Below, one piece after another: positions 978-50,518 of a DNA stretch of 64,000 nucleotides. Location of the stretch: contig JALSMA010000086.1 of the NCBI GenBank assembly GCA_026988015.1, positions 17,972 to 81,971 of the forward strand, read 5' to 3'. Within the stretch, counting starts at the first letter, position 1; each line of letters starts with the position of its first letter. The notes under the pieces are model-generated. The model was not told the origin of the DNA and did not search any database. It was given only the letters and a program-made list of their open reading frames with translations. The position numbers were made by a program, and so were the translations under genes. Source of the DNA: Desulfobulbaceae bacterium. GTDB taxonomy: Bacteria > Desulfobacterota > Desulfobulbia > Desulfobulbales > Desulfocapsaceae.

Positions 978-1055
978 ATGAATCTGCGACAGATTCGCGA
1001 TTGTTTTCCTGGTAACATATTAAAATAAAAAATATCGAACACTCATGGATCCAGG
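978..1055 (+). repeat. Dispersed intergenic element family 1, copy 1 (shortened)
   Basis: catgaatctgcgacagattcgcgattgttttcctggtaacatattaaaataaaaaatatcgaacactcatggatccagg. Confidence 0.7.
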
Positions 1056-1180
1056 ATTTACCCCTGTCACCGTTGATAAATAGACCCTTCCTGTTATTCT
1101 ACCGCATGATAAGAGCAACATCCACAGCGACCTGCAAATCCCTGCTGTTTTTTTTTGAGCTATGGGGGTAATATATATAC

Positions 1181-2587
1181 ATGAACAGAGATATATTTCA
1201 AAAAATTGTGCAAATTGTCGGCAGAAAACACTGCAGCATGGAAATTGAAGAGCGCCACTGCTACTCATACGACAACAGCAAGCAGACATTTCTTCCGGAT
1301 GCTGTCGCCCTACCCGATAGTACCGAGCAGGTCGCAGCCCTTGTAAAACTTGCCAACAACAACAAAATTCCAATTGTTGCCCGTGGAGCAGGAAGCGGTA
1401 CGACAGGTGGCGCCATCCCTACCCACGGTGGAATTGTACTGAGCTGCACCCGACTGAACCGAATCCTTGAAATAGACCGGGAAAATCAGATTGCCATAGT
1501 AGAACCTGGAGTGATCACCGGGGAATTCCAACAGCAATTAAAAAAACATGGTCTCATGTATGCACCCGACCCAGCCAGCCTTAAATTCTGCACCATTGGT
1601 GGAAATGTTGCAGAATGCGCAGGGGGGCCCTCTGCCATTAAATATGGAGTGACTAAAGACTCAATCATCGGCCTTGAAGTGGTCCTTGCAAACGGCGATA
1701 TCCTGTGCACCGGTTGCCGTACCGAAAAAGGGGTGGTTGGCTACGATCTCACCCGACTCTTTATCGGCTCTGAAGGAACCCTCGGGATTATCACCAGAAT
1801 AATCACCAGACTCCTCCCCCTGCCGGAACACAAAGAAACATTCCTCCTCACTTCCAGATCCCTGCCAGAGGCAACTGCGCTTGTGGCCACCATTCTTCAG
1901 AAAAACATCCTGCCCTGTACTCTGGAGTACATGGACAAAACTGCCATAGCAGTTGTCTCTAATCTTCTCCCCGAAGCTCCGGGAAAAGATATTGAGGCCA
2001 TGCTGATAATAGAGATTGACGGCAGCCAAAAACACACTGCTGAGCAGGCAGAACTTTTAAGAAACCTGGCTGCCACCAGAGAGCTGTGCACCCTGAGGCA
2101 GGCAGCAACGGAGGAGGAAGTAACTGAAATCTGGAAGGCGAGGCGCTCCATTTCTCCCGCGGCATTCAAACTCAGCCCGCACAAAACCAGCGAAGACGTT
2201 GTGGTACCAAGAAGCCGCATTCCCGAACTGGTCAGCTTCTGTGAAGCATTGAGCCGGGATCTCGAGCTTACCATCCTCACCTTCGGACATGCCGGCGACG
2301 GAAACATTCACGTCAACATCATGTCCTGCAACACAACAGAATTGGAAAAAGAAAAGGTCGTCGCCGCAAAAAAAGCTCTTTTTGAAAAAGTACTCGGCAT
2401 GAATGGCACCCTTTCCGGAGAACATGGTATCGGGACAAGCAAGTCAGCCTTTATATCCATGGAACTCAATGATACCAGCATAATGATTATGCAACAGATC
2501 AAACAGCTTTTTGATAAAAACAATATCCTGAACCCTGGGAAAATTTTTCCGGCAAACAAGTTCAGTGACCCTTCTGCCTCTTGCTGA
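1181..2587 (+). CDS. FAD-binding oxidase, glycolate oxidase subunit GlcD / D-lactate dehydrogenase family
   Basis: PxxxEQVAALVKLAN..PIVARGAGSGTTGGAIP FAD-binding 4 motif, GxxTxDSIIGLEVVLANGD, FGHAGDGNIHVN, SGEHGIG. Confidence 0.93.
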   Translation: MNRDIFQKIVQIVGRKHCSMEIEERHCYSYDNSKQTFLPDAVALPDSTEQVAALVKLANNNKIPIVARGAGSGTTGGAIPTHGGIVLSCTRLNRILEIDRENQIAIVEPGVITGEFQQQLKKHGLMYAPDPASLKFCTIGGNVAECAGGPSAIKYGVTKDSIIGLEVVLANGDILCTGCRTEKGVVGYDLTRLFIGSEGTLGIITRIITRLLPLPEHKETFLLTSRSLPEATALVATILQKNILPCTLEYMDKTAIAVVSNLLPEAPGKDIEAMLIIEIDGSQKHTAEQAELLRNLAATRELCTLRQAATEEEVTEIWKARRSISPAAFKLSPHKTSEDVVVPRSRIPELVSFCEALSRDLELTILTFGHAGDGNIHVNIMSCNTTELEKEKVVAAKKALFEKVLGMNGTLSGEHGIGTSKSAFISMELNDTSIMIMQQIKQLFDKNNILNPGKIFPANKFSDPSASC

Positions 2588-2721
2588 AAAATCCATTGAC
2601 AGACACAGAAGTTTTTTTTATATAAAGAAGATTATTGTCATGACTTTTTATAATTGTAATGAAAGTCTGAAAATTCTTGTTTTCGGATTTTTCGTAAATA
2701 TTGTTGATAACGGAGCCCCAA

Positions 2722-2913
2722 ATGATAGAAGTTGAAGTTCGTGGAGATCTTGAGTATGCCATCAGGCAGCTGAAAAAGAAACTGCAGATTGACGGCATCA
2801 AACGTGAACTGAAACGCCGGGAGCATTATGAAAAACCCAGCGTCAAGAAACGTCGCAAACAAGCTGAAGCTCGTCGTAAACTCCGCAAGTTTAACCGTGT
2901 CAGACGCGGCTGA
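2722..2913 (+). CDS. rpsU: 30S ribosomal protein S21
   Basis: IEVEVRGD..YAIRQLKKKLQIDGIKRELKRREHYEKPSVKKRRKQAEARRK; start chosen at internal Met 2722. Confidence 0.95.
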   Translation: MIEVEVRGDLEYAIRQLKKKLQIDGIKRELKRREHYEKPSVKKRRKQAEARRKLRKFNRVRRG

Positions 2914-2938
2914 GAGTAAGAAAGCTTTATTTTACCTG

Positions 2939-2976
2939 CGCCCGCTGTAATGAGTACAACGGGCGTTTTCTCTTTT
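2939..2976 (+). terminator. Intrinsic terminator downstream of rpsU
   Basis: CGCCCGCTGT-aatgagt-ACAACGGGCG stem (9/10 pairs) followed by TTTTCTCTTTT. Confidence 0.7.
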
Positions 2977-3903
2977 GCACCACAGTCTGCCATCGCCAGA
3001 AAGCCCCTCCCACAAGAGTTTACCTCTGCCAAAGAGCTCTTTCTCCACTATCTGATCACCGAGAAACGCTTTGCAGAAAACACTGTCGCAGCCTACAACG
3101 CAGACATTCACTTTTTTCTCAATTTTCTCATTACCAAAAAGAAGAAGCTGAATCAGGTGAACAGCAAGGTCGTCCGCAGCTTCCTTGAGCTATGCCGCAG
3201 TAGAAATATTTCAAATCGCAGCAATGCCAGGAGGATCTCAGCGCTACGAAGCTTTTTTCATTTCCTCACTGCAGCCCATATTATTCAAGACCACCCTTTT
3301 TCAAATATCACCGCCCCGAAAAGCGGAACAAGCCTCCCAAAAGGACTGTCAGTGGCTCAAGTGAACCGCCTGTTACAGCCTCCAACAATTCCCACTCCGC
3401 TCTCACAACGCAACCATGCCATGCTGCAACTCCTCTATTCCACAGGATTGAGGGTCTCAGAGCTGACCAGTCTCCCTGTCACCAGTTGCAACCTCTCTTC
3501 CTGTTTTATTCGAGTTCTTGGCAAGGGAGAAAAAGAGCGCCTGATACCCTTTGGAACTCCTGCAAAAGATGCCATTGAATCCTACCTGGATACAGCCCGT
3601 CCCATGATCCTTAAAGGCAGACGCAGCAACACCCTTTTTATCACCAATCGCGGCCAAGGAATGACACGACTCAGATTCTGGCAGATAATTAAAGAGGCTG
3701 CACGTGCTGCCGGAATACGTGAGCAGTTATCCCCCCATAGCCTACGCCACTCGTTTGCCACTCACCTTCTCTCCCATGGCGCCGATCTTCGCTCAGTTCA
3801 ACTCATGCTTGGCCACTCAGACATCACCACAACCCAGATTTACACCCAGGTGGACCGGGATCGCCTGAAATCACTCCATAAAAAATTTCACCCTCGCGGC
3901 TGA
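2950..3903 (+). CDS. Tyrosine recombinase XerC/XerD-like
   Basis: SAM-like N-domain; catalytic motif GLRVSEL, HSLRHSFATHLLSHGADLRSVQLMLGHSDITTTQIYT. Confidence 0.93.
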   Translation: MSTTGVFSFAPQSAIARKPLPQEFTSAKELFLHYLITEKRFAENTVAAYNADIHFFLNFLITKKKKLNQVNSKVVRSFLELCRSRNISNRSNARRISALRSFFHFLTAAHIIQDHPFSNITAPKSGTSLPKGLSVAQVNRLLQPPTIPTPLSQRNHAMLQLLYSTGLRVSELTSLPVTSCNLSSCFIRVLGKGEKERLIPFGTPAKDAIESYLDTARPMILKGRRSNTLFITNRGQGMTRLRFWQIIKEAARAAGIREQLSPHSLRHSFATHLLSHGADLRSVQLMLGHSDITTTQIYTQVDRDRLKSLHKKFHPRG

Positions 3904-4064
3904 TCCCGGGTATTAATCCGGTTCATCAGCAGAGAAATACCTTATATTTTTTTTTTCATATGGGCAGTTAAAACAACTGGTAAAAAGAGAGAAGAATAGA
4001 GTACCATTCACCACTGTCTCCAATAATTTCGTTCAATGATGAACATTCCACCTGCCCTCTTTCT

Positions 4065-6734
4065 ATGAAAGTCATTACCTCCCACCTCAATGCAGACTTC
4101 GACAGTCTCGCCGCCATGATAGCAGCCCAGAAGCTTCACCCCGATGCGGTAATGGCATTTCCTGGATCCCAGGAAAAAAATGTTAGGCGGTTTATCGGCG
4201 AAACACTCAAATACAAATACGAATTTGTAAAACCCAAGCACCTCGACCTCAACCAGATTACAACGCTCATTGTGGTGGACACCCGACAAAAATCCCGTAT
4301 TGGAGAATTTGGAAAGTGCAGTGACTCCCCAAAGACTAAAATCTACATCTACGACCACCACCCTGACAACAAAGACTCCATAAAAGGAGACATTGAGTCA
4401 ATTGCTCTAGTTGGATCAACCACCACTATAATATGTCAGGAACTGAAAGCAAAAGAAATTCCAATCTCCCCGGATGAAGCTACAATTTTTGGCCTTGGTA
4501 TATATGAGGACACTGGATCCCTCACCCACCTGACCACAACACCAGAGGACCTCTTTATTGTTGCCTGGCTTCTTGAAAAAGGTGCTCAGCTCGACATCAT
4601 TTCCCAGTTTCTTTCCTACGATCTTTCCTCCCGCCAGGTAAGTCTGATTCACGAACTTGGTAAGACTGCCCAATCCTATATAATATCCGGGATTAAAACT
4701 GTCCTTGTGAATCTCACTTTACAAGAATATGAAGACGATTTTTCCCTTATTGTACGCAGGTTCATGGTGATGGAAAACCTCAACTGTCTTTTTGCCCTGG
4801 TGTGTATGGAGGGACGTATCTACCTTATTGCCAGATCACGAATCCCCGAAATCAATGCCGGAGCCATTGCCCGTGACTTCAATGGTGGCGGCCATGCTTC
4901 TGCTGCTTCAGCTACCATTCGTGATATGACCATGATTGAGGCCCAGGAACTGCTTATTCGCAGCCTTCACCGTCACATCAAGCCACAGGCCATTGCCGGA
5001 GAAATGCTTTCCAGCCCGGTTATCAGCATCCCACCCGAAACATCCATCCTTGAGGCCAACAAACTGCTTACCCGATACAACATTACCGTTCTCCCCATTA
5101 TCACCAGCAGTGCAACTGACAACCGTCCCATCCTCCACAAGGAGATTATTGGAACCATCTCAAGAAGGATCATAGAAAAAGCAATTCATCACAACCTGGG
5201 TTCTTTCCCGGTGAGTGATTACATGACAACAGACGTTGAGGTACTTCCTTTAAGTGCTACTCTCGCCGAAATTGAAGAGCTGATCATAGAAAAAAGACAA
5301 CGACTGATCCCCATTATCCATGAACAAAAGCTTGAAGGTGTTATCACCCGGACCGATCTCCTCAATATGCTCATAAATGACCCGGGGCACCTTCCCCAGG
5401 ATTTTGGTCGCGAAGATGGACACCCAGCAAGGGAAAAAAACAAAAATGTCCTCCAGCTGATGAGTGAAACTCTGCACCGTGACCTTATCATTCTCCTCAG
5501 AACCATTGGAGAAGTTGCTGAAAGTTCCGGTTTCAAAGCTTACGCAGTTGGTGGATTCGTTCGCGACCTGCTCATGAAACAGAAAAATCTTGATCTTGAC
5601 ATTGTTGTTGAAGGTAATGGAATTGTCTTTGCAAAGCACCTGGTGGCCCGACTTGGCGGCAGACTCAGAAGTCACGAGCGTTTTGTCACAGCCAATGTAA
5701 CTCTGGCTGATGGATTTAAGATCGATGTTGCCACAGCGAGACTGGAATACTATGAATATCCGGCAGCGCTGCCAACCGTTGAGCTTTCATCAATTAAACT
5801 TGATCTCTTTCGGCGAGACTTCACTATTAATGCCATGGCCCTGCAGCTCAATCCTGAGAAATTCGGGATTCTAATTGACTTTTTCAGCTGTCAGAACGAT
5901 CTGAAGGACAAACTTATAAAAGTGCTCCATAACCTGAGTTTTGTTGAAGATCCCAGCCGTATTCTGCGAGCCATTCGCTTTGAAAGACGGATGGATTTCA
6001 AGATAGCCAGACACACTGAAAAACTGATCCAGGGAGCCGTGAAAATGGACCTCTTTGGCCAGGCAACCAACCCAAGGCTCTTCTCAGAACTTAAACAGAT
6101 ATTTTCGGAAGAAAACCCGATACTTGCCATAAGAAGACTTGCGGATTACAACCTGTTCCAATTTCTTTGGCCAGATCTGTTACCCAATCTGAAAACCGAT
6201 CGACGGTTTCTACATATATTGAGACAGACTCAGCAGGCCCTGTCCTGGTTCTCTCTGCTCTACCTTGAGGAAGAGATTGAATCGTGGAGAATTTATCTGC
6301 TTGCCATCATGGCAAGATCCCGCCCGACACAGATAGAGTCTTTCTGCAAACGTTTCCAGATCCACGATCAGGTATGCCGCGAGCTAATCATCCAGAAGCT
6401 CAAGGCCGAGGAGCTTGCCAATAAGCTCTATATCAAAATCCCGGCAAAAAACAGCCTCATCCGAAAAATGCTGTCTTCACTCTCCAACGAAGGTTTACTC
6501 TACCTTATGGGCATAGCCAGAAAAAAGGAAATAAAAAAGACGGTGTCACTCTATGTCACCACTCTGCGCACCATTCAGCCACTGCTCAATGGTGATGACT
6601 TAAAGGAATGCGGGTATACCCCCGGCAAACTATTCAAGAAGATCCTCACCGCTCTTCGGGATGCACGTCTTGATGGCATAGTTGAAAGTCGTGAGGACGA
6701 ACTGGATTATCTGCACAGGAATTTTCCACGATAA
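4065..6734 (+). CDS. DHH phosphoesterase - CBS pair - tRNA nucleotidyltransferase (A-adding/CCA-adding) fusion
   Basis: N-term HxNADFDSLAA..DTR..DHH motifs; two CBS repeats; C-term AVGGFVRDLLMKQKNLDLDIVVEG nucleotidyltransferase and RRDFTINAMA, RILRAIRFERR. Confidence 0.93.
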   Translation: MKVITSHLNADFDSLAAMIAAQKLHPDAVMAFPGSQEKNVRRFIGETLKYKYEFVKPKHLDLNQITTLIVVDTRQKSRIGEFGKCSDSPKTKIYIYDHHPDNKDSIKGDIESIALVGSTTTIICQELKAKEIPISPDEATIFGLGIYEDTGSLTHLTTTPEDLFIVAWLLEKGAQLDIISQFLSYDLSSRQVSLIHELGKTAQSYIISGIKTVLVNLTLQEYEDDFSLIVRRFMVMENLNCLFALVCMEGRIYLIARSRIPEINAGAIARDFNGGGHASAASATIRDMTMIEAQELLIRSLHRHIKPQAIAGEMLSSPVISIPPETSILEANKLLTRYNITVLPIITSSATDNRPILHKEIIGTISRRIIEKAIHHNLGSFPVSDYMTTDVEVLPLSATLAEIEELIIEKRQRLIPIIHEQKLEGVITRTDLLNMLINDPGHLPQDFGREDGHPAREKNKNVLQLMSETLHRDLIILLRTIGEVAESSGFKAYAVGGFVRDLLMKQKNLDLDIVVEGNGIVFAKHLVARLGGRLRSHERFVTANVTLADGFKIDVATARLEYYEYPAALPTVELSSIKLDLFRRDFTINAMALQLNPEKFGILIDFFSCQNDLKDKLIKVLHNLSFVEDPSRILRAIRFERRMDFKIARHTEKLIQGAVKMDLFGQATNPRLFSELKQIFSEENPILAIRRLADYNLFQFLWPDLLPNLKTDRRFLHILRQTQQALSWFSLLYLEEEIESWRIYLLAIMARSRPTQIESFCKRFQIHDQVCRELIIQKLKAEELANKLYIKIPAKNSLIRKMLSSLSNEGLLYLMGIARKKEIKKTVSLYVTTLRTIQPLLNGDDLKECGYTPGKLFKKILTALRDARLDGIVESREDELDYLHRNFPR

Positions 6735-6772
6735 GAATCGCCACTTCCTGCCCTGACCTGAGCACCTGAATC

Positions 6773-8245
6773 TCAGAAAGCAACCACCTGATTACGACCA
6801 TTGGATTTAGCAGTGTACAGTGCCCTGTCGGCCCTGCGAATAATCTCATCCCTGTTATCTTTCTGCTGAAAAACTGTGACCCCGACACTGACAGTGACAG
6901 CCAGGTTTTTCCCATCAAGCAGCAAAGGGTGATTCAAAATACCCAGCCGCAGCTCCTCGGCCATATTCATTGCCGTTTTCAAATCACAGCCTTTTAGTAG
7001 AACCATAAATTCCTCCCCACCCCAGCGGCATTTAATATCTGTCTCACGTAAACGGGATTTTATCAGCCCGGCAATATGCACAAGCACTGCATCCCCAGCA
7101 AGATGCCCATGTGAATCGTTGATTTTCTTAAAATGATCAATATCAAGCAGCAGCAGGGACAACTCGTCGGGAACACGCTTCAGATCAAGTACCAGTGAGT
7201 CAAACAGCATATCAAATGCTTGTCGATTATAGAGACCTGTCAACTTATCAGTGGTGGCCATCTCTTCAATATCCAGCTGATACAGAGAGAGCGTTCGATT
7301 GGTGATCAGCAGCACGACAGCGACCACCACTGCACAAAACAGTAAATTCAGAACCAACGCACGGGTGAGCTTATCCTGACCTTCAAGCTCACTCTGAATA
7401 ACAACCAGGTACCAGTCAAACTCTTCAATGTAACGGACATTAAAAAAAACAGGATAATTATCCAGCTCATACTCCAGTGATATAGAATCAACCGCATTGA
7501 TTTTATTCAGAAACGACTCACTTTTAATCAATTCAAACAGGGTCGAACTCCGGTCTTTAGCTTCAGCCTGCAGATCAGAATTCAGCATCACCTCACCCTT
7601 ACTGTCCATAAAAATAATGCTTCGCCCGAATTGCTTCTGGTAGGCAAGAATACGTTCTTTCACCTTTTCAACAGCAAGGCCAATCCCTACAACACCTATG
7701 AATATTCCATCATAATCAAGGACCCGGTAGTTGATAAAAACAGTGAGATTATCCTGATTATTCTCATCGATATCGACGTTAATCTCATAATCCTGTTTCA
7801 GTTCTCGTACCCGAAAATACCAGTCGTCCCTTTCGTCCTGCGGCCGAACCTGCTTCGCGACCCCACTTGGATGATAGTATTTCCGGGTGTTCTCTGATAC
7901 AAAAAATGCGGTAACAGCTCCATATTTCAACTTAATCTCAGTTAAATACCGAACAATAGCCCTCTGGTCCTTCTCTCCACCCTTGGCCCAGTCATACAAA
8001 AAGGTGTCAGATGCCATAAGAGAAGAGATAAGTATTGGCGGCAGGAGATCACGCTGAATTTCAGAATAAATATTATCTCCGGTAAGGGGTAGTTCACCTG
8101 CGGTCAACTGATACCGCAAAGAAGCAATAGAGACAAAATAGCTGAACAGACTGGTGAGTAAAAAACCGACAGTGAGCAGCATACTGACAAAAAGAATCAG
8201 ACGTTTTTTCTGTTTCAACATACAGGTGTCTTTTCTGTTAAACAT
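6773..8245 (-). CDS. Membrane diguanylate cyclase with Cache-like sensor (GGEEF)
   Basis: TM + extracytoplasmic region, then TDKLTGLYNRQAFD..RWGGEEFMVLL; alternative start at 8221. Confidence 0.92.
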   Translation of the reverse strand: MFNRKDTCMLKQKKRLILFVSMLLTVGFLLTSLFSYFVSIASLRYQLTAGELPLTGDNIYSEIQRDLLPPILISSLMASDTFLYDWAKGGEKDQRAIVRYLTEIKLKYGAVTAFFVSENTRKYYHPSGVAKQVRPQDERDDWYFRVRELKQDYEINVDIDENNQDNLTVFINYRVLDYDGIFIGVVGIGLAVEKVKERILAYQKQFGRSIIFMDSKGEVMLNSDLQAEAKDRSSTLFELIKSESFLNKINAVDSISLEYELDNYPVFFNVRYIEEFDWYLVVIQSELEGQDKLTRALVLNLLFCAVVVAVVLLITNRTLSLYQLDIEEMATTDKLTGLYNRQAFDMLFDSLVLDLKRVPDELSLLLLDIDHFKKINDSHGHLAGDAVLVHIAGLIKSRLRETDIKCRWGGEEFMVLLKGCDLKTAMNMAEELRLGILNHPLLLDGKNLAVTVSVGVTVFQQKDNRDEIIRRADRALYTAKSNGRNQVVAF

Positions 8246-8543
8246 TCACAGCAATCTGGGCCCTATGCCTAAGACAGGAATATCCCTTCAACAAAGCAAT
8301 AAATTACCTCGCTGTTAGACAAGGATATCCTATTTGCCAGGAAAAAAAATGAATATTATTTGCGCCGCTCCGACAAACCCGAGACTTCCTGAGCCAGCAA
8401 ACCGTATGTTATTTTTAACCGCATCATGCCCATTAAACAGAATTTAATTCATTATTATTGCCAGGTAGCTGAATTTTTACCTTGCACATCCCCATTTTAT
8501 GAAATATATAAACAAGACAAGACAGACAGAACCATTCCAGAAG

Positions 8544-8656
8544 CTGCAGGATACTGAAGGGAGGTGAGTGTTTTTTTAACATACCTGATTGTGAATCTTA
8601 TATCTGTATTTCAGCAGGTTACCACAGACAACAACTACGAAGCCGTCACGGATTCA
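8544..8656 (-). repeat. Dispersed intergenic element family 1, copy 2
   Basis: Reverse complement CTGAATCCGTGACGGCTTCGTAGTTGTTGTCTGTGGTAACCTGCTGAAATACAGATATAAG...GGTATGTTAAAAAAAC matches other copies. Confidence 0.75.
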
Positions 8657-8672
8657 GAAGGGTAGTATAACG

Positions 8673-9188
8673 ATGCATCACGAAAACTCAAATAGCGCCT
8701 TTGATGAAAAAGATAGGTCAATTCTCAACAGCCTGCAGAAAGACTCAACCATCACCAATGCAGAACTGGCAAAACAGGTAGGCCTTTCACCGTCAGCATG
8801 TCTCGGCAGAACCAAACGACTCAAAGAGAGCGGACTGATAAAACAATTTGTTGCTGTACTCGATGAACAAAAGGCAGGCCTGGAAGTAGTCACCTTTGTT
8901 TTTATAACCCTCACACCTCACGACAGAGAGACCACAGAGTCATTTTTGGCCACCATCCGTGATATCCCCAACATTATGGAGTGTTACAATATCTCAGGAA
9001 ACTATGATTATCTGCTGAAGATCCTCTCCCCTTCAATCAGTGCATATAGAAATTTTGTAATCGATACCCTCATTGAAGTTCCGGGAGTTGGAAAGGTCGA
9101 GACCACCGTGGTCTTAAGCAGTGAAAAACAGTCACATCAGCTGCCACTTATCGATTCACGACTATGGAACAAAGGAGAACGCATATGA
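8673..9188 (+). CDS. Lrp/AsnC family transcriptional regulator
   Basis: DRSILNSLQKDSTITNAELAKQVGLSPSACLGRTKRLKESGLI HTH + RAM domain. Confidence 0.95.
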   Translation: MHHENSNSAFDEKDRSILNSLQKDSTITNAELAKQVGLSPSACLGRTKRLKESGLIKQFVAVLDEQKAGLEVVTFVFITLTPHDRETTESFLATIRDIPNIMECYNISGNYDYLLKILSPSISAYRNFVIDTLIEVPGVGKVETTVVLSSEKQSHQLPLIDSRLWNKGERI

Positions 9189-11429: not shown

Positions 11430-11446
11430 GGGGCCAAGGGAAAACT

Positions 11447-12837: not shown

Positions 12838-12959
12838 CCTGAATCAGCGACAACTTCGTGATTGCTTTTCCTATAACCCACGAAATGTAATTTAAATCCC
12901 ACATCCTGGTATATAAAACAAACCTAGCTGCATTACCATCAAACGCTCACGGATTCAAG
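12838..12959 (+). repeat. Dispersed intergenic element family 1, copy 3 (full length)
   Basis: cctgaatcagcgacaacttcgtgattgcttttcc...gcattaccatcaaacgctcacggattcaag. Confidence 0.8.
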
Positions 12960-13044
12960 TATGACAATCTCGTAAAAAGGTCAATTGATAGATGACTAAG
13001 TAAAAACCTTAAGATGAGAAAAATGTATTTTTTGTTTGATTTCT

Positions 13045-13119
13045 GCGTACCAGGGCACGTCGTAGTTGATATAAAAAATGCAGCAACGAAGCAGGAAAAG
13101 AGTTTTTACGACGCCATCA
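13045..13119 (+). repeat. Dispersed repeat family 2, copy 1 (short form)
   Basis: gcgtaccagggcacgtcgtagttgatataaaaaatgcagcaacgaagcaggaaaagagtttttacgacgccatcaa; shared with 19161 and 59146. Confidence 0.75.
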
Positions 13120-13125
13120 AGTATA

Positions 13126-13161
13126 CCCATGTGAAACCACATAACTGCAATTTCACATGGG
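13126..13161 (-). other. Perfect 11-bp inverted repeat downstream of katA
   Basis: CCCATGTGAAA - 14 nt - TTTCACATGGG, no clear U-tract. Confidence 0.5.
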
Positions 13162-17870: not shown

Positions 17871-17983
17871 ACTCAAATCCGTAAGCATTCGATGATTTTT
17901 CCAAACACACCGAATTGCGTTTTTTTACAGCGACATTTCATTATGTTACTCAGAAACCAATCAAAAATCCGTCACAGATTGAC
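17871..17983 (-). repeat. Dispersed intergenic element family 1, copy 4
   Basis: actcaaatccgtaagcattcgatgat...gcgtttttttacagcgacatttcattatgttactcag...aatccgtcacagattgac. Confidence 0.7.
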
Positions 17984-18076
17984 AACTGAATCAGCAATCT
18001 ATTAAGCAGCAGCAATCTCGTCAAGGGAGAATAAGCATTGCAGTGAAAACTGATTTTCAGTATAGAGCAATGCACC

Positions 18077-18976: not shown

Positions 18977-19021
18977 TTAGTTACCAGAAGAACAATGGTA
19001 TAAAGCCACCACGGACTCAGG
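18977..19021 (-). repeat. Dispersed intergenic element family 1, copy 10 (half copy)
   Basis: gttaccagaagaacaatggtataaagccaccacggactcagg aligns with copy 2. Confidence 0.55.
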
Positions 19022-19160
19022 TTTCAGACATCTACTCCTTGCACCACCACCTTTCAGTGCTTATCCTTGATTCAAACTATCTCGTGAGTGTTCTCTCTAT
19101 AAATATGATGGACTCGAAAAAAAGCCCCATATCCGAGGCACGGAGAGATCCTGTCTTTTC

Positions 19161-19314
19161 GGCGTACCATAAAGGTACCTTGAAAAGATAATAATTTTGT
19201 ACCCCAAGGGCACTTCCTGCGGGGCGCACCCCAAGGGCACTTCCTGCGGGGCGCACCCCAAGGGCACTTCCTGCGGGGCGCATAACGAAGCAGGTGAAAA
19301 GTTTTTCACGACGC
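19161..19314 (+). repeat. Dispersed repeat family 2, copy 2, containing an expanded 27-bp tandem
   Basis: ggcgtaccataaaggtacc...cgcataacgaagcaggtgaaaagtttttcacgacgc. Confidence 0.75.
19201..19281 (+). repeat. Perfect 3 x 27-bp tandem repeat
   Basis: accccaagggcacttcctgcggggcgc repeated three times without mismatch. Confidence 0.97.
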
Positions 19315-20463: not shown

Positions 20464-20569
20464 CCTGAGTCCGTGGGCATTCAATGGTGAGGTAGCCTGT
20501 TTTCTAATTTTACACTTGCATTTCAGCACATTACCAAGAAAACAATCTCGATTCCGTCACAAATTCGAA
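20464..20569 (-). repeat. Dispersed intergenic element family 1, copy 5 (between ynbE and ydbL)
   Basis: cctgagtccgtgggcattcaatggtgaggtagcctgttttc...gcatttcagcacattaccaagaaaacaatctcgattccgtcacaaattcg. Confidence 0.75.
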
Positions 20570-24629: not shown

Positions 24630-24688
24630 CCTGAATCCGTGACAGACTCGTCATTATTTCCCAGTAACATTCTGAAATGAAAAACTCA
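24630..24688 (+). repeat. Dispersed intergenic element family 1, copy 6 (left half)
   Basis: cctgaatccgtgacagactcgtcattatttcccagtaacattctgaaatgaaaa. Confidence 0.7.
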
Positions 24689-24710
24689 CAGTCAAGTGTG
24701 TTTGGGAAAA

Positions 24711-26399
24711 TCAATCACCACTGTACAAATACCGTTTAATCTTATGAGTGGCCGTCTTAATAAAAGGCTCACGCCGTTCAACTACTCTGGCCAGTCGGGA
24801 AGCTGTTGACACCTGGGCATTCACCTCTTTTCTCATCGTGCTGCACAGGTCATCAATATATTTACGACGCTCAACTCTGGACTGGCCCTCGGTCATATCA
24901 TCAATAAACTCATAATCAGGATATACCCAGGCATCGAGTTTGCCGTTGTTTTCCACAACCAGTGATTCAACCACCCATGAATACGCATTAATTTTGTGCT
25001 CAATGGGTTCCGGATACACATTTTCACCATTTGCCATAACAATAACATTTTTAGAGCGTCCCCGGATGTGCAGGTTTCCAGCCTCATCAAATGAGCCCAG
25101 GTCTCCTGTTATTAACCAGCCATCTTCGGTAAGAGCGTCTGCAGTCGCATCAGGGTCACCATAATAGCCCTGCATGATATTAGGACCACATCCGTAAATT
25201 TCCCCAACACCACTATCTGGATCGGGATCAACAATCTTTATCTGAACACCAGGGAACGGCTTTCCGGTTGAGCCAAGCGCAATGGTGGGATCACCCACCG
25301 GTCCGCCGGCAAGGATCGGAGCAGATTCTGTTAAGCCATATCCTATTAAATAGGGAAACTCCGCCTCTTTCAAGAACTTTTCCACCTCTGGATTCAAGGC
25401 AGCCCCGCCGATTCCCATAATTTCCAGGTCACCACCGAAAAATTCAAGAAGTTTTGCACCAATTTTTTTGTACACAAACTTTCTGCCAAAATTACATTTA
25501 CAGAGAACAGAGAGCAAAATACTTTTTTCAACCTGTGGTAAAACCCGCTTTTTGTATATCTTCTCCATAATAAGCGGAACCGTGAACATAACCTTTGGTT
25601 TTTCATGCTTACAGAGTTTCTGAAGAATTGCCGGCGTCGGGGTTTTTCCGGCATAGGCAACCTTACAACCTTTAATCAGCGGTGTTATAAACCCGAGGGT
25701 AAACTCATAGGTGTGGGACATTGGCAACACAGAAAGAAAAACGTTCCCACTGTCAACCTTTATCATAGTGGCTGCACTGTAGGCATTGGCGGTCAGGTTT
25801 TTGTGACTGAGCATGACAGCTTTTGAATATCCCGACGTCCCCGATGTATAAAGAATGGAGGCGAGATCATCTTCTTCCACCTCGGCAAAAATGACCTCTT
25901 CTGCATCCTCTGCTCCTGTCAGTGCCAGAGCCTCATCAAGATAGCTGGAAAAAAAGGTGACCTCAACCACATCCTGGGTTGCCCCGGAATCATCAAGGGT
26001 AATAATCCGTTTCAGGGACTTCTGGTTCAACTCATATATTTTTTCTATCTGCCGCTGTGACACGAACAGAACCGGTACTTCCATTTCATTGAGAATATGA
26101 TGTACATCAGCCTCCGGCAAATCTGGAAGAATGGGTACGGCAATAGCGCCAAGACGTACAATGGCAAAATAGGCTATCCCCCAGTGTGGTGAATTCTCTG
26201 ATAAGATCGCAATCCGATCACCTTTTTTCACTCCTTCCCTAGAGAGATGACCTGCAAGAGCAATGATACGCTCATAAAATTCATTATATGTAAGGGATTT
26301 TTCTGCTGCCATTCCAATGGCAGGAAGATCCCCGAATCGTTCGACACTGGTATCAAGCGTATAATTTAACGTCATCCGTACATCATTGGATTCCGGCAT
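24711..26399 (-). CDS. Long-chain acyl-CoA synthetase / AMP-binding ligase
   Basis: SILYTSGTSGYSKAVMLSHKNL, GYGLTESAP, GWLITGDLGSFDEAGNLHIRGRSKNVI. Confidence 0.94.
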   Translation of the reverse strand: MPESNDVRMTLNYTLDTSVERFGDLPAIGMAAEKSLTYNEFYERIIALAGHLSREGVKKGDRIAILSENSPHWGIAYFAIVRLGAIAVPILPDLPEADVHHILNEMEVPVLFVSQRQIEKIYELNQKSLKRIITLDDSGATQDVVEVTFFSSYLDEALALTGAEDAEEVIFAEVEEDDLASILYTSGTSGYSKAVMLSHKNLTANAYSAATMIKVDSGNVFLSVLPMSHTYEFTLGFITPLIKGCKVAYAGKTPTPAILQKLCKHEKPKVMFTVPLIMEKIYKKRVLPQVEKSILLSVLCKCNFGRKFVYKKIGAKLLEFFGGDLEIMGIGGAALNPEVEKFLKEAEFPYLIGYGLTESAPILAGGPVGDPTIALGSTGKPFPGVQIKIVDPDPDSGVGEIYGCGPNIMQGYYGDPDATADALTEDGWLITGDLGSFDEAGNLHIRGRSKNVIVMANGENVYPEPIEHKINAYSWVVESLVVENNGKLDAWVYPDYEFIDDMTEGQSRVERRKYIDDLCSTMRKEVNAQVSTASRLARVVERREPFIKTATHKIKRYLYSGD

Positions 26400-26462: not shown

Positions 26463-26585
26463 CCTGAACCTGTGATGGACTCACACTTGTATTTTTGATA
26501 ACATACTGAAATACGAAAACAATATCCGCAATATGGTATGCTAAAAAAACAGGATGCATCACCATCGAATATTCACCGGTTCAGA
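26463..26585 (+). repeat. Dispersed intergenic element family 1, copy 7 (full length)
   Basis: cctgaacctgtgatggactcacacttgtatttttgataacatactgaaatacgaaaac...tatgctaaaaaaacaggatgcatcaccatcgaatattcaccggttcag. Confidence 0.8.
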
Positions 26586-40333: not shown

Positions 40334-40394
40334 CCGGAATCCGTGATGACAGAGTCACTCGCCTCCTTTCTGGATGGACGATCACAGATTCAGG
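40334..40394 (+). repeat. Dispersed intergenic element family 1, copy 8 (short form)
   Basis: ccggaatccgtgatgacagagtcactcgcc...gatcacagattcagg inverted ends. Confidence 0.55.
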
Positions 40395-40458: not shown

Positions 40459-41808
40459 TCAGAGAGCTTCAAGGATTTTTCTTCGTCCAGCCGCGGAACG
40501 TTTCAACACAGAAACGGCCTCATCGACATAATCGAATACCTGTGCCTGCTTCCCCTTTGCCGGACGCATTATACGCCCCAGCACCTGCAGTAGCCGCCCC
40601 TCAAAAGTGATCGGGGTTGTTAGAAACAGATTACTGAGACCGGGGCAGTCAAAGCCTTCACCGATAAGCTGTAAAGTCGCCACCAGCACCTTCACCCTTC
40701 CTGACTGCACATCGGCAACAACTGCGGCCCGCTGCTCAGCAGATGTCTTGCCGATAAGTAACGCCACGGCAACCCCGCGCCGTTTCAGACCGTCTTCAAA
40801 GATCCGGCAATGAGAAATACGATCGGATACCAGCAATTGAATACCGCTGTTCCTGCGCCTGCTCTCCCGCACCACATCATCAATTATCTGCTGATTACGC
40901 GCGGCATCTTTGATCAATGCAGCAATAAGGGGTTGATAGTCACCACGATATCGATAGCGAAAAACAGTTTTACAGCGCACCAGACTTGGTTTGACAATGG
41001 CTCCGCTTGCCTGGAGTTCCGCCTGATCCACCTTGTGGAACTGGTCCCCCATGTAAAAACTAATCAGCCGCGTCAACCCTTCGTCACTGCGAAATGCAGT
41101 GGCCGAAAGCCCGAGCAGGTAGTGGCCGCTGAAGCTTCCTACCACATCGGTAAACAAGGTAGCTGGCACACGGTGACACTCATCCACAACCAGATGTCCA
41201 AATCGAGAAGCCAACTCTTGGAACCTTTTTCTGGCAGTATTAACAATGGCAATGGACACTGGAGCCACCTCAAAATGGCCATCTCCAATCAGGCCCGGCT
41301 CAAGTCTCAGAAACTCCCTTACTCTTTCCTGCCACTGATACAACAGTTCCCTAGTGTGAACCACAATAAGAGTCGGCTGACGGCGCGCTGCAATAATTGC
41401 CAGGGCCATCACCGTTTTGCCACTGCCGGTTCCGGCCTCCAGCACACCGAAGGAGCGTTTCTCGGCTGCCACAACAGCCGCCTCCTGATAGGGCCGCAAA
41501 ACACCATGAAAAGCAGTGTCCATCTCTTCAAGAAGCAGACGTTTATCGTGTATCAGCGGAGTTTCCCGGAAAAATTCACGGCACAGCAACACCGCCTGGT
41601 TGGCAAACCCCCTTGGAAAACGCAGGCCGTCAGGTACCGACTGGTAATATTTCAAGGTGGGTTTTATCTTATTCCCTACCCAGCGGCCATATTTTTTAGC
41701 TGCCACATATTTGGGATTATCAATGGTAAGCCGAGCTGTAAACTCCTTTTCCAGGGAGAAGGGTATATCCTCAAGGAGACAGTCGGCAGCGATGGTTAGA
41801 GTTGGCAT
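40459..41808 (-). CDS. DEAD/DEAH-box helicase (SF2, SSL2-like)
   Basis: LRPYQEAAVVAAEKRSFGVLEAGTGSGKTVMALAII, VDECHR, SATAFR, GEGFDCPGLSNLFLTTP. Confidence 0.92.
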   Translation of the reverse strand: MPTLTIAADCLLEDIPFSLEKEFTARLTIDNPKYVAAKKYGRWVGNKIKPTLKYYQSVPDGLRFPRGFANQAVLLCREFFRETPLIHDKRLLLEEMDTAFHGVLRPYQEAAVVAAEKRSFGVLEAGTGSGKTVMALAIIAARRQPTLIVVHTRELLYQWQERVREFLRLEPGLIGDGHFEVAPVSIAIVNTARKRFQELASRFGHLVVDECHRVPATLFTDVVGSFSGHYLLGLSATAFRSDEGLTRLISFYMGDQFHKVDQAELQASGAIVKPSLVRCKTVFRYRYRGDYQPLIAALIKDAARNQQIIDDVVRESRRRNSGIQLLVSDRISHCRIFEDGLKRRGVAVALLIGKTSAEQRAAVVADVQSGRVKVLVATLQLIGEGFDCPGLSNLFLTTPITFEGRLLQVLGRIMRPAKGKQAQVFDYVDEAVSVLKRSAAGRRKILEAL

Positions 41809-42012
41809 GGTACACTTTTGTTTTGACAACATATTGTAATGCAAACAGAGCATTCACAAGCAGCTATGGTTAAATAAGATCTCCCACATCCCTTCAGGGC
41901 GAATTCAGGTTGATTATCTACAAGGTCTGTGGCATTTCTAGAAAGGTGTCTGTCCATTATGAGTTTTTTCTCTACATTGAGCCCCCAGGAAAACCCCAAC
42001 CACAGGAACTGT

Positions 42013-44662: not shown

Positions 44663-44668
44663 GCCCTC

Positions 44669-46990
44669 ATGAAATTCACATCCATCACTGTCAAGTTGCT
44701 TGCCATTATCACCGTCGCTTTTGTCATCTCAGGGGTCAGTGTTTTCTATATTGCCGATAAAAAACTGATCCAGGTCATAGACAAGAGCCAGGAGGCTCTG
44801 TATGCAGAAAAAGTGGACACCATTTACAACTTTCTCAGTAGAAATAACGAACGTCTGAAAAAGACCGGAATGGTAGAGGCATATATTGAAGATTTCCAGA
44901 AGGCAAGCATCAGAGACCTCCGTTTAGATCATTACAAAGGCACAGACAAACTGCTCATCTACCCTTTTATCCTCGACTATAACGGAAAAGTTATCATGCA
45001 CCCGGAACTTCCCAAAGGGGATCTTTCGGTGACCCAGCTCGACATTGTCAAGACCCTCCTTACAGCACCTGAGGAAGGAGGCTTCAACTACACCTATCTC
45101 AGAGAAAGAAAGTGGGGCCGTTTTAAGAAATTCCCGGAATGGAAATGGATTATCGGGTACGCTGTTCCAATGGACCTTAAATACGCAGATGCCCGTGAAT
45201 TCCTCACCGCACTTGTCTACATCATGGGAGGGGTGGCCCTGGCTGCAATACTTATTCTTTCACTTGTTGTTGCCAAATTCACTAAACCCATAACCAGGCT
45301 GACCAGAATCGCCACCCGCATGGCCGATGGCAACCTGGATCAGCAAATTAGTATAGCTGGGAGAGATGAAATCAGAACCCTTTCCCAAAGCTTCAGTAAC
45401 ATGCGTGATGCCATCCGGCAGAAAATCCGAGAGCTGGAAGAGGAGAACCGGGAACGAAAAAAAGCAGAAGAAGCCCTGGCTGCCGAAAAAGAACGCCTCT
45501 CCGTGACCCTGCGTTCCATTGGGGATGGCGTCATAACTACCGATGTATCCGGTAACGTCATTTTCCTGAACAAGGTCGCCGAACACATCACAGGATGGCC
45601 GAACTCAGAAGCTGCCACCCGACCCATAAGTGAAATATTCCATGTTATCAATGAGGGGAGCAGGGAAAAACCGGACTACTCCATTCTCCAGATAATCAAT
45701 GACGGCCAGATCATTGATTCCAGAGATCTCATCCTCATCAATAGGGATGGACAAGAGATCAACATCACCAGCAATGGCGCTCCCATCCTCAACGCTGACA
45801 GCGAAATAATTGGTGCCGTCCTGGTTTTCAGAGATATTACCGAGTTTCTCAAAACCGAAAAGGAATTGCTTAAAGTAACCAAACTGGAATCCGTGGGAAT
45901 CCTTGCCGGTGGGATCGCCCATGACTTCAACAATATTCTGGCCGCTATCCTTGGGAATATCAACCTGGCTCTCTTTGATAAAACGCTGCAGGACAAAACC
46001 CGAGAGCTTCTTGCTGCAGCGGAGAAGGCCTCCCTGCGTGCTAAAGACTTAACCCAGCAGCTACTCACATTTGCAAGGGGTGGCGATCCCGTAAAAGAGG
46101 TCTCATCACTGGAGACTGTCATTAAAGATTCGGCAAACTTTGTTCTTCATGGAGATAAGGTCGCCTGCCATTTTACTATTCCAGATGATTTATGGCTGGT
46201 TGAAATAGATAAAGGCCAGATCAGTCAGGTTATCCAGAATATCGTCCTGAACGGCAGCCACGCCATGCCAGAGGGCGGAATAATCACCATTAGTGCCGAA
46301 AATGTTCACGCCGGAGATTACCCGTTCCTCAACACCAATAAGGATGCAGGATTTGTCAAGATAGCAATCAAAGATTGCGGAATAGGGATGTCCCCACACA
46401 TAATGGAAAAAATATTTGATCCCTACTACTCCACCAAGAAAGAAGGCAATGGTCTTGGCCTGGCTATCACCCAGTCCATCACCATGAAACACAACGGACA
46501 TCTCACGGTGGAATCCACCCCGGGAATCGGATCCACCTTTGCATTATTCCTTCCCGCCTCCGGCAAAATAGAGGCAAAAAGCCAGGGAACCACAGCAACA
46601 TCTGCCCAACCATTTCGCGCCCGAATACTACTGATGGATGACGAGGAAATGGTACTGCAGGTGGCAAAAGAGATGCTCACCCTGCTTGGCCATGAGGTCA
46701 CCCTTTCCAAACATGGTGAAGAGGCTATTCAATGCTACCGGGAATCCATTGAAAAAGACGCTGTATTTGACCTCATCATCATGGATCTAACTATTCCTGG
46801 AGGAATGGGGGGGAAAGAGGCGGTGAAAGAGATCCTGATCCTTGACCCCACCGCACGAATAATTGTCTCAAGCGGCTATTCCAACGATCCGGTCATGGCA
46901 AAATACAGCGAATACGGGTTCTGTGCTGCAATTGTAAAACCCTACATCCTCAAAGATCTTTCACGAACCATCAGTGAGTTGACATCATAG
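44669..46990 (+). CDS. Hybrid sensor histidine kinase (Cache-like, HAMP, PAS, HisKA/HATPase, REC)
   Basis: HAMP KFTKPITRLTRIATRMADGNL; PAS; GGIAHDFNNILAAILGN; GNGLGLAI; LLMDDEEMVLQVAKEML..DLIIMDLTIPGGMGG. Confidence 0.94.
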   Translation: MKFTSITVKLLAIITVAFVISGVSVFYIADKKLIQVIDKSQEALYAEKVDTIYNFLSRNNERLKKTGMVEAYIEDFQKASIRDLRLDHYKGTDKLLIYPFILDYNGKVIMHPELPKGDLSVTQLDIVKTLLTAPEEGGFNYTYLRERKWGRFKKFPEWKWIIGYAVPMDLKYADAREFLTALVYIMGGVALAAILILSLVVAKFTKPITRLTRIATRMADGNLDQQISIAGRDEIRTLSQSFSNMRDAIRQKIRELEEENRERKKAEEALAAEKERLSVTLRSIGDGVITTDVSGNVIFLNKVAEHITGWPNSEAATRPISEIFHVINEGSREKPDYSILQIINDGQIIDSRDLILINRDGQEINITSNGAPILNADSEIIGAVLVFRDITEFLKTEKELLKVTKLESVGILAGGIAHDFNNILAAILGNINLALFDKTLQDKTRELLAAAEKASLRAKDLTQQLLTFARGGDPVKEVSSLETVIKDSANFVLHGDKVACHFTIPDDLWLVEIDKGQISQVIQNIVLNGSHAMPEGGIITISAENVHAGDYPFLNTNKDAGFVKIAIKDCGIGMSPHIMEKIFDPYYSTKKEGNGLGLAITQSITMKHNGHLTVESTPGIGSTFALFLPASGKIEAKSQGTTATSAQPFRARILLMDDEEMVLQVAKEMLTLLGHEVTLSKHGEEAIQCYRESIEKDAVFDLIIMDLTIPGGMGGKEAVKEILILDPTARIIVSSGYSNDPVMAKYSEYGFCAAIVKPYILKDLSRTISELTS

Positions 46991-47038
46991 CAGCCAAGGC
47001 CAGAATAAAGAGATCAGGGTGAATTTATTAGCGGATTA

Positions 47039-47102
47039 GCACCGGAGCTCAGCTTTTACCGGTATTGGGTGTATGAGCCCACTCCCGTGGGCGAAAAAAG
47101 CC
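47039..47102 (+). repeat. Dispersed repeat family 3, copy 1
   Basis: gcaccggagctcagcttttaccggtattgggtgtatgagcccactcccgtgggcgaaaaaa; similar to 50174. Confidence 0.7.
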
Positions 47103-47143
47103 TGCAAAACAAAACATAATCGATTAGTTTCACAGGCTTTAAC

Positions 47144-47220
47144 TGGTACGCCAGACAGGGTTCGAACCTGTGACCTACGGCTTAGAAGGCCGTTGCTCTA
47201 TCCAGCTGAGCTACTGGCGC
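47144..47220 (-). tRNA. tRNA-Arg (anticodon UCU)
   Basis: Minus-strand GCGCCAGTAGCTCAGCTGGATAGAGCAACGGCCTTCTAAGCCGTAGGTCACAGGTTCGAACCCTGTCTGGCGTACCA cloverleaf with encoded CCA. Confidence 0.95.
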
Positions 47221-47262
47221 ATGGTATGGCTTGTATAAAATATAGCTGCTAAAAAATCAACT

Positions 47263-49587
47263 TCATTTTTTAGCAACAGGCTTCCAGACAGGTCCCGTTG
47301 CGGTATCAATGATCTGGATTCCCTGCCGGACAAGTTCATCCCGTGCCTCATCGGCTGCCTTCCAGTTTTTCCCCAGCCGCGCCTCTTCGCGGCGCTGAAT
47401 AATGGCATTCACAGCAGGAGCCAGCGGACAGCCCTTGAGTCGGAAAATCTGGAGAATTTCATTCAGCTTGCCAAGGCTATCCAGAATATATTTTTTCTGA
47501 TCCCCGTCCAGATGATTCACATGGAGAATGGGGTTGGTCTGTTTGATAAATGTATACACAGCCGCCATCGCCATGGAGACATTGAGATCATCATCCATGG
47601 CACCAAAAAACTGTTCTTCCATGGCTGAGACATAAGATGCCACTTCCGGATGCGGTTTTCCCGGCGGCAGACAGAGCAGTTTGCAGGTAAACTCGTCAAT
47701 TCGACGCAGCGCAGTGCGCACATTAATCAAGCGCTGGAATGAAAAATCCAGCGGTTTGCGATAATGTACTGAGAGGAGCATAAAGCGAACATCACGCGGT
47801 GTAAAGCCGCGCAACACTGCATCGTTCAAGGTCACCACATTGCCGGCCTCCGATGACATCTTCTTCCCGTCCACCAAAAGCAGCTCCGAGTGCAGCCAGT
47901 ATTTTGCCAGGGGCTTTCCTGTAAGCGCCTCAGCAATGGCTATTTCATTTTCATGGTGAGGAAAGATCAGGTCACGACTGGCCGTATGAATATCCATGGT
48001 TTCGCCAAGGTATCTGGTGGACATGGCAGAACACTCAATATGCCAGCCTGGACGCACATTGCCCCAGTCAGTTTCGTAAAAGATCCCCACTTTCAGTTCA
48101 GCCAGGGTGGATCGCTTGAGCAGGGTAAAATCCCGCGGATTATCCTTTTCATAATTATCAAGATCAACGGTCCTACCCAGCTGAATTTTACTCAGATCAA
48201 TCCCCGAAAGCCGACCATATTTCTTAAATTTGGAGATATCAAAATATATGGACCCATGTTTTTCGTATGCATACCCCTTATGAAGCAGCTTATGGGATAT
48301 TTCTATCATATCCTCCACATGTTCCAGAGCGCGTGGATAATTCGTAGCACGTTTCACCTTCAGAGAATCAATATCCGCCATAAATCCATCAATATAGCGG
48401 GAGGTGAATTCCGCAAGAGACTTGCCTGTCCTGATTGCCCCCTCAATGGTGTTATCATCAAGATCCGTGAAATTCATACATGAATTTACCTCATAACCCT
48501 TGTGTTCAAGATAACGGGTAATAAGGTCCGACACCACCAACCGGCGGCACAGAGACAGATCTGCAGGTTCATACGCTGTGGGGCCACAGGTGTACAGGGT
48601 AACTTTTTTATCACGCTGTGACTGAAACTCCTCTTTCTTCTTGCTCAGGGTGTTAAAAAAACAGAGCCCGGATTTCTTCTCGGTGACATTGTTCTTCCTG
48701 GTAAACAGCGGGGTGGACAGGTAACGCTCCCCGCCGTCCGGAATAATCGTTACAATAAAACCATCTTCAAGTTCTTCGGCCAGCTTCAGGGCACAGAACA
48801 TTGCCGCCCCGCTGCTCATTCCAACCAGCAACCCTTCTTTTCTGGCCAGCATCCGCGCCATGCGAAAGGCATCTTCATCATGAACATTAGCAATTTGATG
48901 TGGAAGGGATTTATCGAAAATACCGGGACGATAAGACTCCTTCATGTTTTTCAGCCCCTGAATTTTATGGCCGAGAAAGGGCTCGACTGCCACAATTTTT
49001 ACCTCAGGATGATGCTCGGAGAACCATTTACAAAGGCCCATCACTGTGCCGGAGGTCCCAAGTGTTGCCACAACATGGCTCAGCTTCCCCCCGGTCTGTT
49101 CCCATATTTCAGGAGCAGTGTTGTCATAGTGCGCCCGCCAGTTAGCCTCATTATTGAATTGATCCGTCAGATAATAGCGTTCCGGATGCTCCCGGGCCAT
49201 AACATAGGCCTTTTCAATGGCACCATCAGTACTGCGTTTTGCTGGAGTGAGAAGGATTTCAGCACCATAGGCCTGCATAATCTGCCTTCTTTCAAGGGAG
49301 GCAGATTCCGGCATAACCAGCTGACAACGATACCCCTTGGCAGCACAGACCATGGCAAGCCCTATACCTGTATTGCCGCTTGTTGCCTCGAGCACAATCT
49401 TATCCTCAGTCAACTCACCGCTGGCTTCTCCTGCTTCAATAAGAGACAGGGAGATCCGTTCCTTCACCGACCCTCCAGGATTGCTGAATTCGAGTTTGGC
49501 GTACACAGGAATATCTGTCTTATTCAGGCGATTCACCCTGATCAGAGGAGTACCGCCAATGGCGTCTAATACTGTATCATATAGCAT
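47263..49587 (-). CDS. Fusion of cysteine synthase (CysK-type PLP domain) with a cysteinyl-tRNA synthetase-like domain
   Basis: N-term IGGTPLIRVNRL..PGGSVKERI..EATSGNTGIGLAMVCAAKG; C-term FNTLSKKKEEF..LYTCGPTAYEP..RPGWHIECSAMSTRYLG..FPHHENEIA..KKMSSEAGN. Confidence 0.92.
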   Translation of the reverse strand: MLYDTVLDAIGGTPLIRVNRLNKTDIPVYAKLEFSNPGGSVKERISLSLIEAGEASGELTEDKIVLEATSGNTGIGLAMVCAAKGYRCQLVMPESASLERRQIMQAYGAEILLTPAKRSTDGAIEKAYVMAREHPERYYLTDQFNNEANWRAHYDNTAPEIWEQTGGKLSHVVATLGTSGTVMGLCKWFSEHHPEVKIVAVEPFLGHKIQGLKNMKESYRPGIFDKSLPHQIANVHDEDAFRMARMLARKEGLLVGMSSGAAMFCALKLAEELEDGFIVTIIPDGGERYLSTPLFTRKNNVTEKKSGLCFFNTLSKKKEEFQSQRDKKVTLYTCGPTAYEPADLSLCRRLVVSDLITRYLEHKGYEVNSCMNFTDLDDNTIEGAIRTGKSLAEFTSRYIDGFMADIDSLKVKRATNYPRALEHVEDMIEISHKLLHKGYAYEKHGSIYFDISKFKKYGRLSGIDLSKIQLGRTVDLDNYEKDNPRDFTLLKRSTLAELKVGIFYETDWGNVRPGWHIECSAMSTRYLGETMDIHTASRDLIFPHHENEIAIAEALTGKPLAKYWLHSELLLVDGKKMSSEAGNVVTLNDAVLRGFTPRDVRFMLLSVHYRKPLDFSFQRLINVRTALRRIDEFTCKLLCLPPGKPHPEVASYVSAMEEQFFGAMDDDLNVSMAMAAVYTFIKQTNPILHVNHLDGDQKKYILDSLGKLNEILQIFRLKGCPLAPAVNAIIQRREEARLGKNWKAADEARDELVRQGIQIIDTATGPVWKPVAKK

Positions 49588-49640
49588 AATAGTTAGTTAT
49601 CTTGGTTTTGACCTTTTTATATATGTATTTTAAAGGAATA

Positions 49641-50111
49641 TTACATTTTCTTACAGGCCCGGGAAAGATACCAGAAACGAAAGAGAGCCTCACGCGCATC
49701 TTTATCAGAAATGGACCCGACGCATGACTCAAATGCTGCAATATCAGCAGCAAGTGGTTGCTGATATCGCAATGCGGGCTCACTGCTTCCTTCATCCTCC
49801 ATCGCTTTCTCTGCAACACAGAAACGCAGCCCCTTCAAACGGGTTTTTCTCAATGAGCTATTCAATTTTTCCAATGTGAAAACAGTCTGATATTGAAACT
49901 GCTGCAGCCAGGATGAATTTTCGGCCTCAAGCCATAAAACCCGCTTCACGATTTTCAACGGACGACAGTGCGCAGCCATATCTTCATCCACAAGTTCCTG
50001 CCAGTTTACAAAAATTGAATGGAGATCAAGCTGATCTTCCCAGCCCCGCTGCCGGGTTATCTGCGGGAGAAGGAGCGCCAGGCCCTGTAATGTTTTACTA
50101 TTTTCTTTCAT
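49641..50111 (-). CDS. DUF721 / DciA-like protein
   Basis: FVNWQELVDEDMAAHCRPLKIVKRVLWLEAENSSWLQQFQYQTVFTLEKLNSSL. Confidence 0.7.
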   Translation of the reverse strand: MKENSKTLQGLALLLPQITRQRGWEDQLDLHSIFVNWQELVDEDMAAHCRPLKIVKRVLWLEAENSSWLQQFQYQTVFTLEKLNSSLRKTRLKGLRFCVAEKAMEDEGSSEPALRYQQPLAADIAAFESCVGSISDKDAREALFRFWYLSRACKKM

Positions 50112-50114
50112 TAT

Positions 50115-50165
50115 CCTGAATCCGTGACAGCTTCGTGATTGTTTTTTTTGATAACATATTAAAAC
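50115..50165 (+). repeat. Dispersed intergenic element family 1, copy 9 left half
   Basis: cctgaatccgtgacagcttcgtgattgttttttttgataacatattaaaa. Confidence 0.75.
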
Positions 50166-50173
50166 CTGCTTAC

Positions 50174-50235
50174 CACCGAAGCTCAGCTTTTACCGGTATC
50201 AGGTGCAGAAACTCACTCCCGTTGACAAAAAATCG
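50174..50235 (+). repeat. Dispersed repeat family 3, copy 2
   Basis: accaccgaagctcagcttttaccggtatcaggtgcagaaactcactcccgttgacaaaaaa. Confidence 0.7.
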
Positions 50236-50465
50236 TCAGTTTTTCGAGCAGTTATAGCCCACGGGAGCGGGACCCTACAATAGCAATTTGTTGTTGCCTG
50301 GGCTTTCGTGGTAACTATGTATTAAAATGCAGATACAAAATCACAAATCAAGCATGAAAAAAAAACATTTGCCCCCTTCAGGGGTTAGCTGCCGATACAT
50401 CCTGTTACCTTTGTCCTCATTGACAGAGCACATTTGAAAAATTTACACAGGCCACTATAACCAAC

Positions 50466-50518
50466 GTACTCAAAAAAAACCAGACTGCATCACCATTGAA
50501 GGCTCACGGATTCAGGTA
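50466..50518 (+). repeat. Dispersed intergenic element family 1, copy 9 right half
   Basis: gtactcaaaaaaaaccagactgcatcaccattgaaggctcacggattcaggta. Confidence 0.75.

Follow-up and report, generated by a model that had tools for sequence, protein, structure and literature searches.

A Desulfobulbales MITE, probably mobilised by IS1380-type transposases, with a conserved internal fold that may be a structured RNA

Genomes of the bacterial order Desulfobulbales carry a MITE that is probably moved in trans by transposases of the IS1380 family and whose internal fold appears to be kept by selection, likely as a structured RNA. We put the probability of this reading as a whole at about 0.86. Bacterial MITEs are usually seen as a pair of ends with filler between them. 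Here, the filler keeps its fold across a bacterial order while its sequence has almost wholly changed, and this implies that the fold is recognised by something. In the proposed mechanism, DDE transposases of the IS1380 family would recognise the 13-bp ends of the MITE and move the element in trans, and insertion would duplicate 5 bp of an AT-rich target. The full element would be laid out as the left end, an AT-rich stretch of about 70 bp, the motif TTCACC, a folded domain of about 110 nt and the right end. Selection on base pairing in one strand would maintain this domain, most likely as a structured RNA.

The window, which is the whole 64-kb stretch of DNA that was analysed, contains about 11 copies of one dispersed family. 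The end TCACGGATTCAGG, at no more than two mismatches, has 15 matches in the window while 1.67 are expected, and 15 matches were reached in none of 100 shuffles. In the source genome (3.15 Mb, 91 contigs), 365 end-like sites were found, compared with 19 for a reversed control pattern. These counts confirm the dispersed repeat claimed in the original prediction and place its copies, in the genome-wide search set as a check that could refute it, far above chance. Neither do the copies have only their 12-bp ends in common: a profile built from copies in the genome recovers the window copies with E values down to 1e-22, and the likeness reaches well past the ends. In a sample of 1.17 Mb of the source genome, 87 copies were counted, of which 78 are intergenic (outside ORFs), though 88% of the sample is coding. 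The sample consists of stretches some of which were picked for containing ends, and the extrapolation to about 234 copies per genome is for this reason an upper estimate. The source genome has about a couple of hundred mostly worn copies of the MITE.

All the copies that had been listed for the window were found at or within a few bases of their expected positions, and one diverged copy that the list had missed was added at 41790-41891 (+; profile match, E = 6e-12). The strand given here corresponds to the left-end-first orientation. Short copies with both ends are located at 977-1055 (+), a deleted form, at 12838-12959 (+) and at 26463-26585 (+), which is the best short copy with 123 bp. Two other short copies are at 17871-17984 (-), which has worn ends, and at 20464-20569 (-). 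The left-end part of a copy lies at 8544-8658 (-), with a 13-bp end at 8646-8658 that has one mismatch, and the left half of another, with a perfect 13-bp end, at 24630-24720 (+). A left-end fragment at 18977-19021 (-) lies 4 bp past the stop of an ORF, and the 61-bp copy at 40334-40394 (+) is made of the ends only. The one full-length element of the window, at 50115-50516 (+), has two perfect 13-bp ends and is interrupted by another repeat. Its segments 50115-50165 and 50466-50518 had been described as separate halves, but they belong to a single copy, split by an unrelated repeat of about 165 bp at 50162-50330 (+) that is nested in the element and lies outside the MITE proper.

Two other repeats were observed in the window. 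The nested repeat of about 165 bp is a low-copy repeat that is also found at 47030-47099 and in contigs C64 and C83 of G000. The sequence of the host element on its two sides, TAACATATTAAAA / TAACTATGTATTAAAA, is perhaps a target duplication. A different dispersed repeat of about 170 bp, which abuts the copy ending at 12959, occupies 12959-13127 and is found again at 59111-59250 and, weakly, at 19105-19314. It has 71 matches in the 1.17 Mb of the source genome and many in the same-genus genome G010; it lacks the 13-bp ends and has a palindromic core near TGCGTACCAGGGCACGTCGTA.

The complete element measures about 217-220 bp. With a 220-bp consensus, full-length copies were recovered in the source genome (70-80% identity) and also in G003, a genome of the same genus. 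Elsewhere in the order, the sizes of the elements flanked by duplications peak at 200-262 bp, and smaller groups lie near 100-138 and 34-45 bp. The forms of 105-125 bp are thus internal deletions that have retained the ends. The length of 105-125 bp originally taken as the unit size is that of an internally deleted, worn form of the complete element. The inverted ends are 13 bp long, CCTGAATCCGTGA / TCACGGATTCAGG, and the element is short, non-coding and bounded by terminal inverted repeats, as a MITE should be. The left end is followed by about 70 bp of AT-rich sequence that is unalignable and constant in length. In 77 of 82 copies, the motif TTCACC lies at a distance of 84-88 nt from the left tip, though the intervening sequence is not conserved. 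Three near-pure end-to-end palindromes of 40-45 bp, L147:6505-6544, L181:1091-1135 and L202:2034-2074, have 5-bp duplications and can be read as mobile or residual elements reduced to the two ends. Larger composite elements were rejected, as no pair flanked by a duplication was found in the range of 300 to 7000 bp at the loci examined.

The MITE character of the family, which is close to certain, is borne out by the traces that its insertion has left. Of 119 two-ended young copies in named genomes, 70 are flanked by an exact duplication of 5 bp of the target, compared with 1.1 by shuffled pairing, and duplications of 2, 3, 4, 7 or 8 bp show no excess in the same 119 copies. The worn two-ended copies of the source genome have the 5-bp duplication in only 4 of 14 cases. 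In G010, which represents a sister species of the same genus, the sites orthologous to copies 8544 and 26463 are cleanly empty. Nearly all of copies 17871 and 20464 is absent there, with a few bases left at the place of insertion. The short end-like remnant that G010 has at the orthologue of 50115 is not counted among these four sites. Target duplications are still seen around deletion forms that have nothing but the ends, which suggests that the ends are enough for movement.

The search for a parent transposase with the same ends led to the IS1380 family. In G018, transposases of this family (PF13701) are encoded in elements of about 1.67 kb, whose ends are exactly CCTGAATCCGTGA and TCACGGATTCAGG. 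In G018, G118, G075 and others, the match to the MITE is complete at both ends (13 of 13 bases), and across the order the ends of IS1380 elements are identical to those of the MITE or differ by 1-2 bases. By protein search, IS1380-family transposases are present in 22 of 146 genomes of the order. An exact 5-bp duplication flanks 10 of 18 two-ended IS1380 copies, and repeats of 4-5 bp upon IS1380 insertion have been reported (PMC12116815). The common 13-bp ends and the 5-bp duplications thus point to an IS1380-type transposase as the likely mover, and we consider it very probable, with good support, that the MITE has been mobilised in trans by such an enzyme. The protein search detected no IS1380 transposase in the source genome, so mobilisation there would be historical. 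With its worn, mostly mid-deleted copies and no detected transposase of this family, the MITE family of the source genome looks like an old relic. The left 85 bp or so of the MITE gave, against IS1380 left ends, a weak best score of 7.6 bits compared with 2.9 for shuffled sequences, in its own copies only; an origin of the left part in the promoter region of IS1380 may be taken as a lead. The IS1380 left ends (L257-L285) have a leader hairpin, CACCTG...CAGGTG, just upstream of the transposase start and over the likely ribosome-binding site. IS1380 elements as carriers of the folded domain were rejected, the domain being absent from those examined.

Inwards of the right end, each full element has a domain of about 110 nt that consists, when read from that end, of a long stem interrupted by a tandem G.A internal loop and of two hairpins. 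The inner hairpin has a single-base bulge and the second hairpin is GC-rich. The inverted ends had suggested one long RNA hairpin, a description that misses the main structural signal, which is this separate, internal, branched and covarying domain. In an alignment of 40 sequences, 28 of 35 pairs are altered on both sides, 92.9% of cells are paired (79.7% when shuffled, at most 45% when slid) and the covariation is 0.381, compared with 0.159 +/- 0.009 for shuffled and at most 0.094 for slid versions. In 43 further copies, two-sided changes occur in 34 of 35 pairs and the covariation reaches 0.647, compared with 0.254 +/- 0.011 when shuffled and at most 0.108 when slid; these copies, most of them from genomes that did not contribute to the model, were aligned by the model, and such a fit leans towards the structure. 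The long copies of the source genome match the model of the domain. Most window copies have lost the domain, and the one match in the window, a degenerate copy at 50374-50516 (-) read inwards from the right end, is weak (model R1, 20.1 bits, E = 0.004). In searches against Rfam, the window gave only a tRNA and six loci with full elements gave no meaningful match up to E = 1; no family reached its gathering score with the element.

On the basis of these alignments, the structure of the folded domain is very likely conserved under selection. Covariation could also arise by mutation, if template switching at quasi-palindromes repeatedly matched the arms to each other with no selected function. 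The long near-perfect inverted arms of some copies (L301, L346) and the multicopy, repetitive nature of the elements fit such a process, which should however erase the one-base bulge. The bulge is retained in 37 of 40 and 39 of 41 copies, 76 of 81 together. Template switching yields Watson-Crick pairs, not the 253:43 excess of G.U over A.C described below, and the fold persists with fixed spacing across families of the order. These features make a purely mutational origin very improbable. In L151, L177, L201, L117 and L128, the folded domain contains an insertion of about 25 bp with the core GCGAGCCTGCGAGAC, which sits in one or another arm of the hairpin depending on the lineage and resembles an independent small palindromic repeat. 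On the left-to-right strand, one loop is similar to a CsrA site (GGA); it was discarded as a candidate because, as read from the alignment, the loops of other lineages differ at this place.

The two strands of the domain are not equivalent. On the strand that runs inwards from the right end, G.U wobbles and A.C mismatches occur in a ratio of 253:43, and in test copies from outside the genus the ratio is 86:15. Within genomes, 62 stem transitions lead to G.U and 32 to A.C (p = 0.0026). The control at unpaired positions gave 66:60, and the difference between stem and control is borderline (Fisher p = 0.053). The excess of G.U favours selection on this strand, as RNA or as single-stranded DNA. 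The domain might act as strand-specific single-stranded DNA, for instance in replication or transposition, where a protein would recognise it as it does the hairpins of IS200/IS605 or REPINs. The strand asymmetry, the kept bulge and the lack of bias towards neighbouring genes fit a DNA-level role equally, and the promoter-like signal of the element would not transcribe the favoured strand. However, 5-bp duplications and 13-bp inverted ends are unlike those of HUH/Y1 systems, and the tandem G.A/A.G positions and the many G.U pairs are typical of RNA. We regard the single-stranded DNA reading as rather unlikely, and lean slightly towards RNA over both single-stranded DNA and a mutational artefact.

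The promoter-like signal was found in the source genome, where 42% of the copies reach a sigma-70-like score of at least 9/12 on the left-to-right strand, compared with 11% for the other strand and for shuffles. It points inwards from the left end, opposite to the strand favoured by the pairing, which speaks against simple transcription from a promoter within the element. In this genome, 50 of 70 cases have the left-end gene pointing away from the element. The signal and this arrangement would be expected if the element were kept as a promoter or as a stabilising untranslated region for neighbouring genes, but the young copies of other genomes have no preferred orientation to their neighbours (20/19/19/13) and four sites in the sister genome G010 are empty or nearly so, so that we hold this explanation to be improbable as well. 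The random orientation also weakens a cis-regulatory untranslated-region element as a candidate. The preferred reading is still that of a fold kept by selection, most likely as RNA. That the domain is an order-wide, unannotated structured RNA (or a strand-specific DNA structure), carried as cargo by an IS1380-type MITE as a fold-selected mobile non-coding gene that serves the transposon or the host, is an extension that we put forward tentatively.

Within the order Desulfobulbales, the model of the folded domain has matches in 72 of 146 genomes and in 37 of the 55 genera. In other orders of the phylum, it matches 2 of about 285 genomes, G280 with 11 matches and G257 with 3, which suggests horizontal spread. 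GTDB contigs were searched with a short right-end pattern. Among the matches listed are Desulfobulbus alkaliphilus, bacteria named Desulfobulbales or Desulfobulbaceae, less specifically named Desulfobacterales and Deltaproteobacteria, Bacterium BMS3Bbin14 and a few MAGs labelled only Proteobacteria or Pseudomonadota. A long pattern from the window's own consensus gave no matches in these contigs because the copies in this genus are worn. Some genomes have many young copies together with matching autonomous transposons, which makes it possible to test directly how the MITE is mobilised and what the folded domain does. Furthermore, hundreds of intergenic repeats in these genomes could be annotated with the covariance model.

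Several known systems resemble this family. The MITEs Chunjie (Geobacter uraniireducens, 178-235 bp), Correia, ERIC and BOX, as described in a review (PMC10969869), are similar in size, inverted ends, direct repeats, intergenic location, deleted partial copies and hairpin folding. They differ from the present family, which has a conserved internal structure with order-wide covariation. IS1380 is not mentioned in that review of bacterial MITEs (PMC10969869). REPINs, which are REP doublets moved by RAYT, are likewise short hairpin elements of intergenic regions, for which folding as single-stranded DNA or as mRNA is predicted (PMC3116915), whereas the element described here has inverted ends of 13 bp and duplicates 5 bp of its target, as a DDE transposon does; given these duplications, membership of the REPIN/RAYT system was rejected. 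The family also resembles the IS1380 family, which includes ISEcp1/ISEc9: the 13-bp ends of IS1380 elements in the same order are identical to those of the MITE, and the 5-bp target duplication is common to both. The ends also start with CCT in both the MITE and ISEcp1, whose IRL is ACGTAGAATCTAGG (PMC12116815), i.e. CCTAGATTCTACGT. Unlike the IS1380 elements examined, the MITE has no transposase gene and carries the folded domain.
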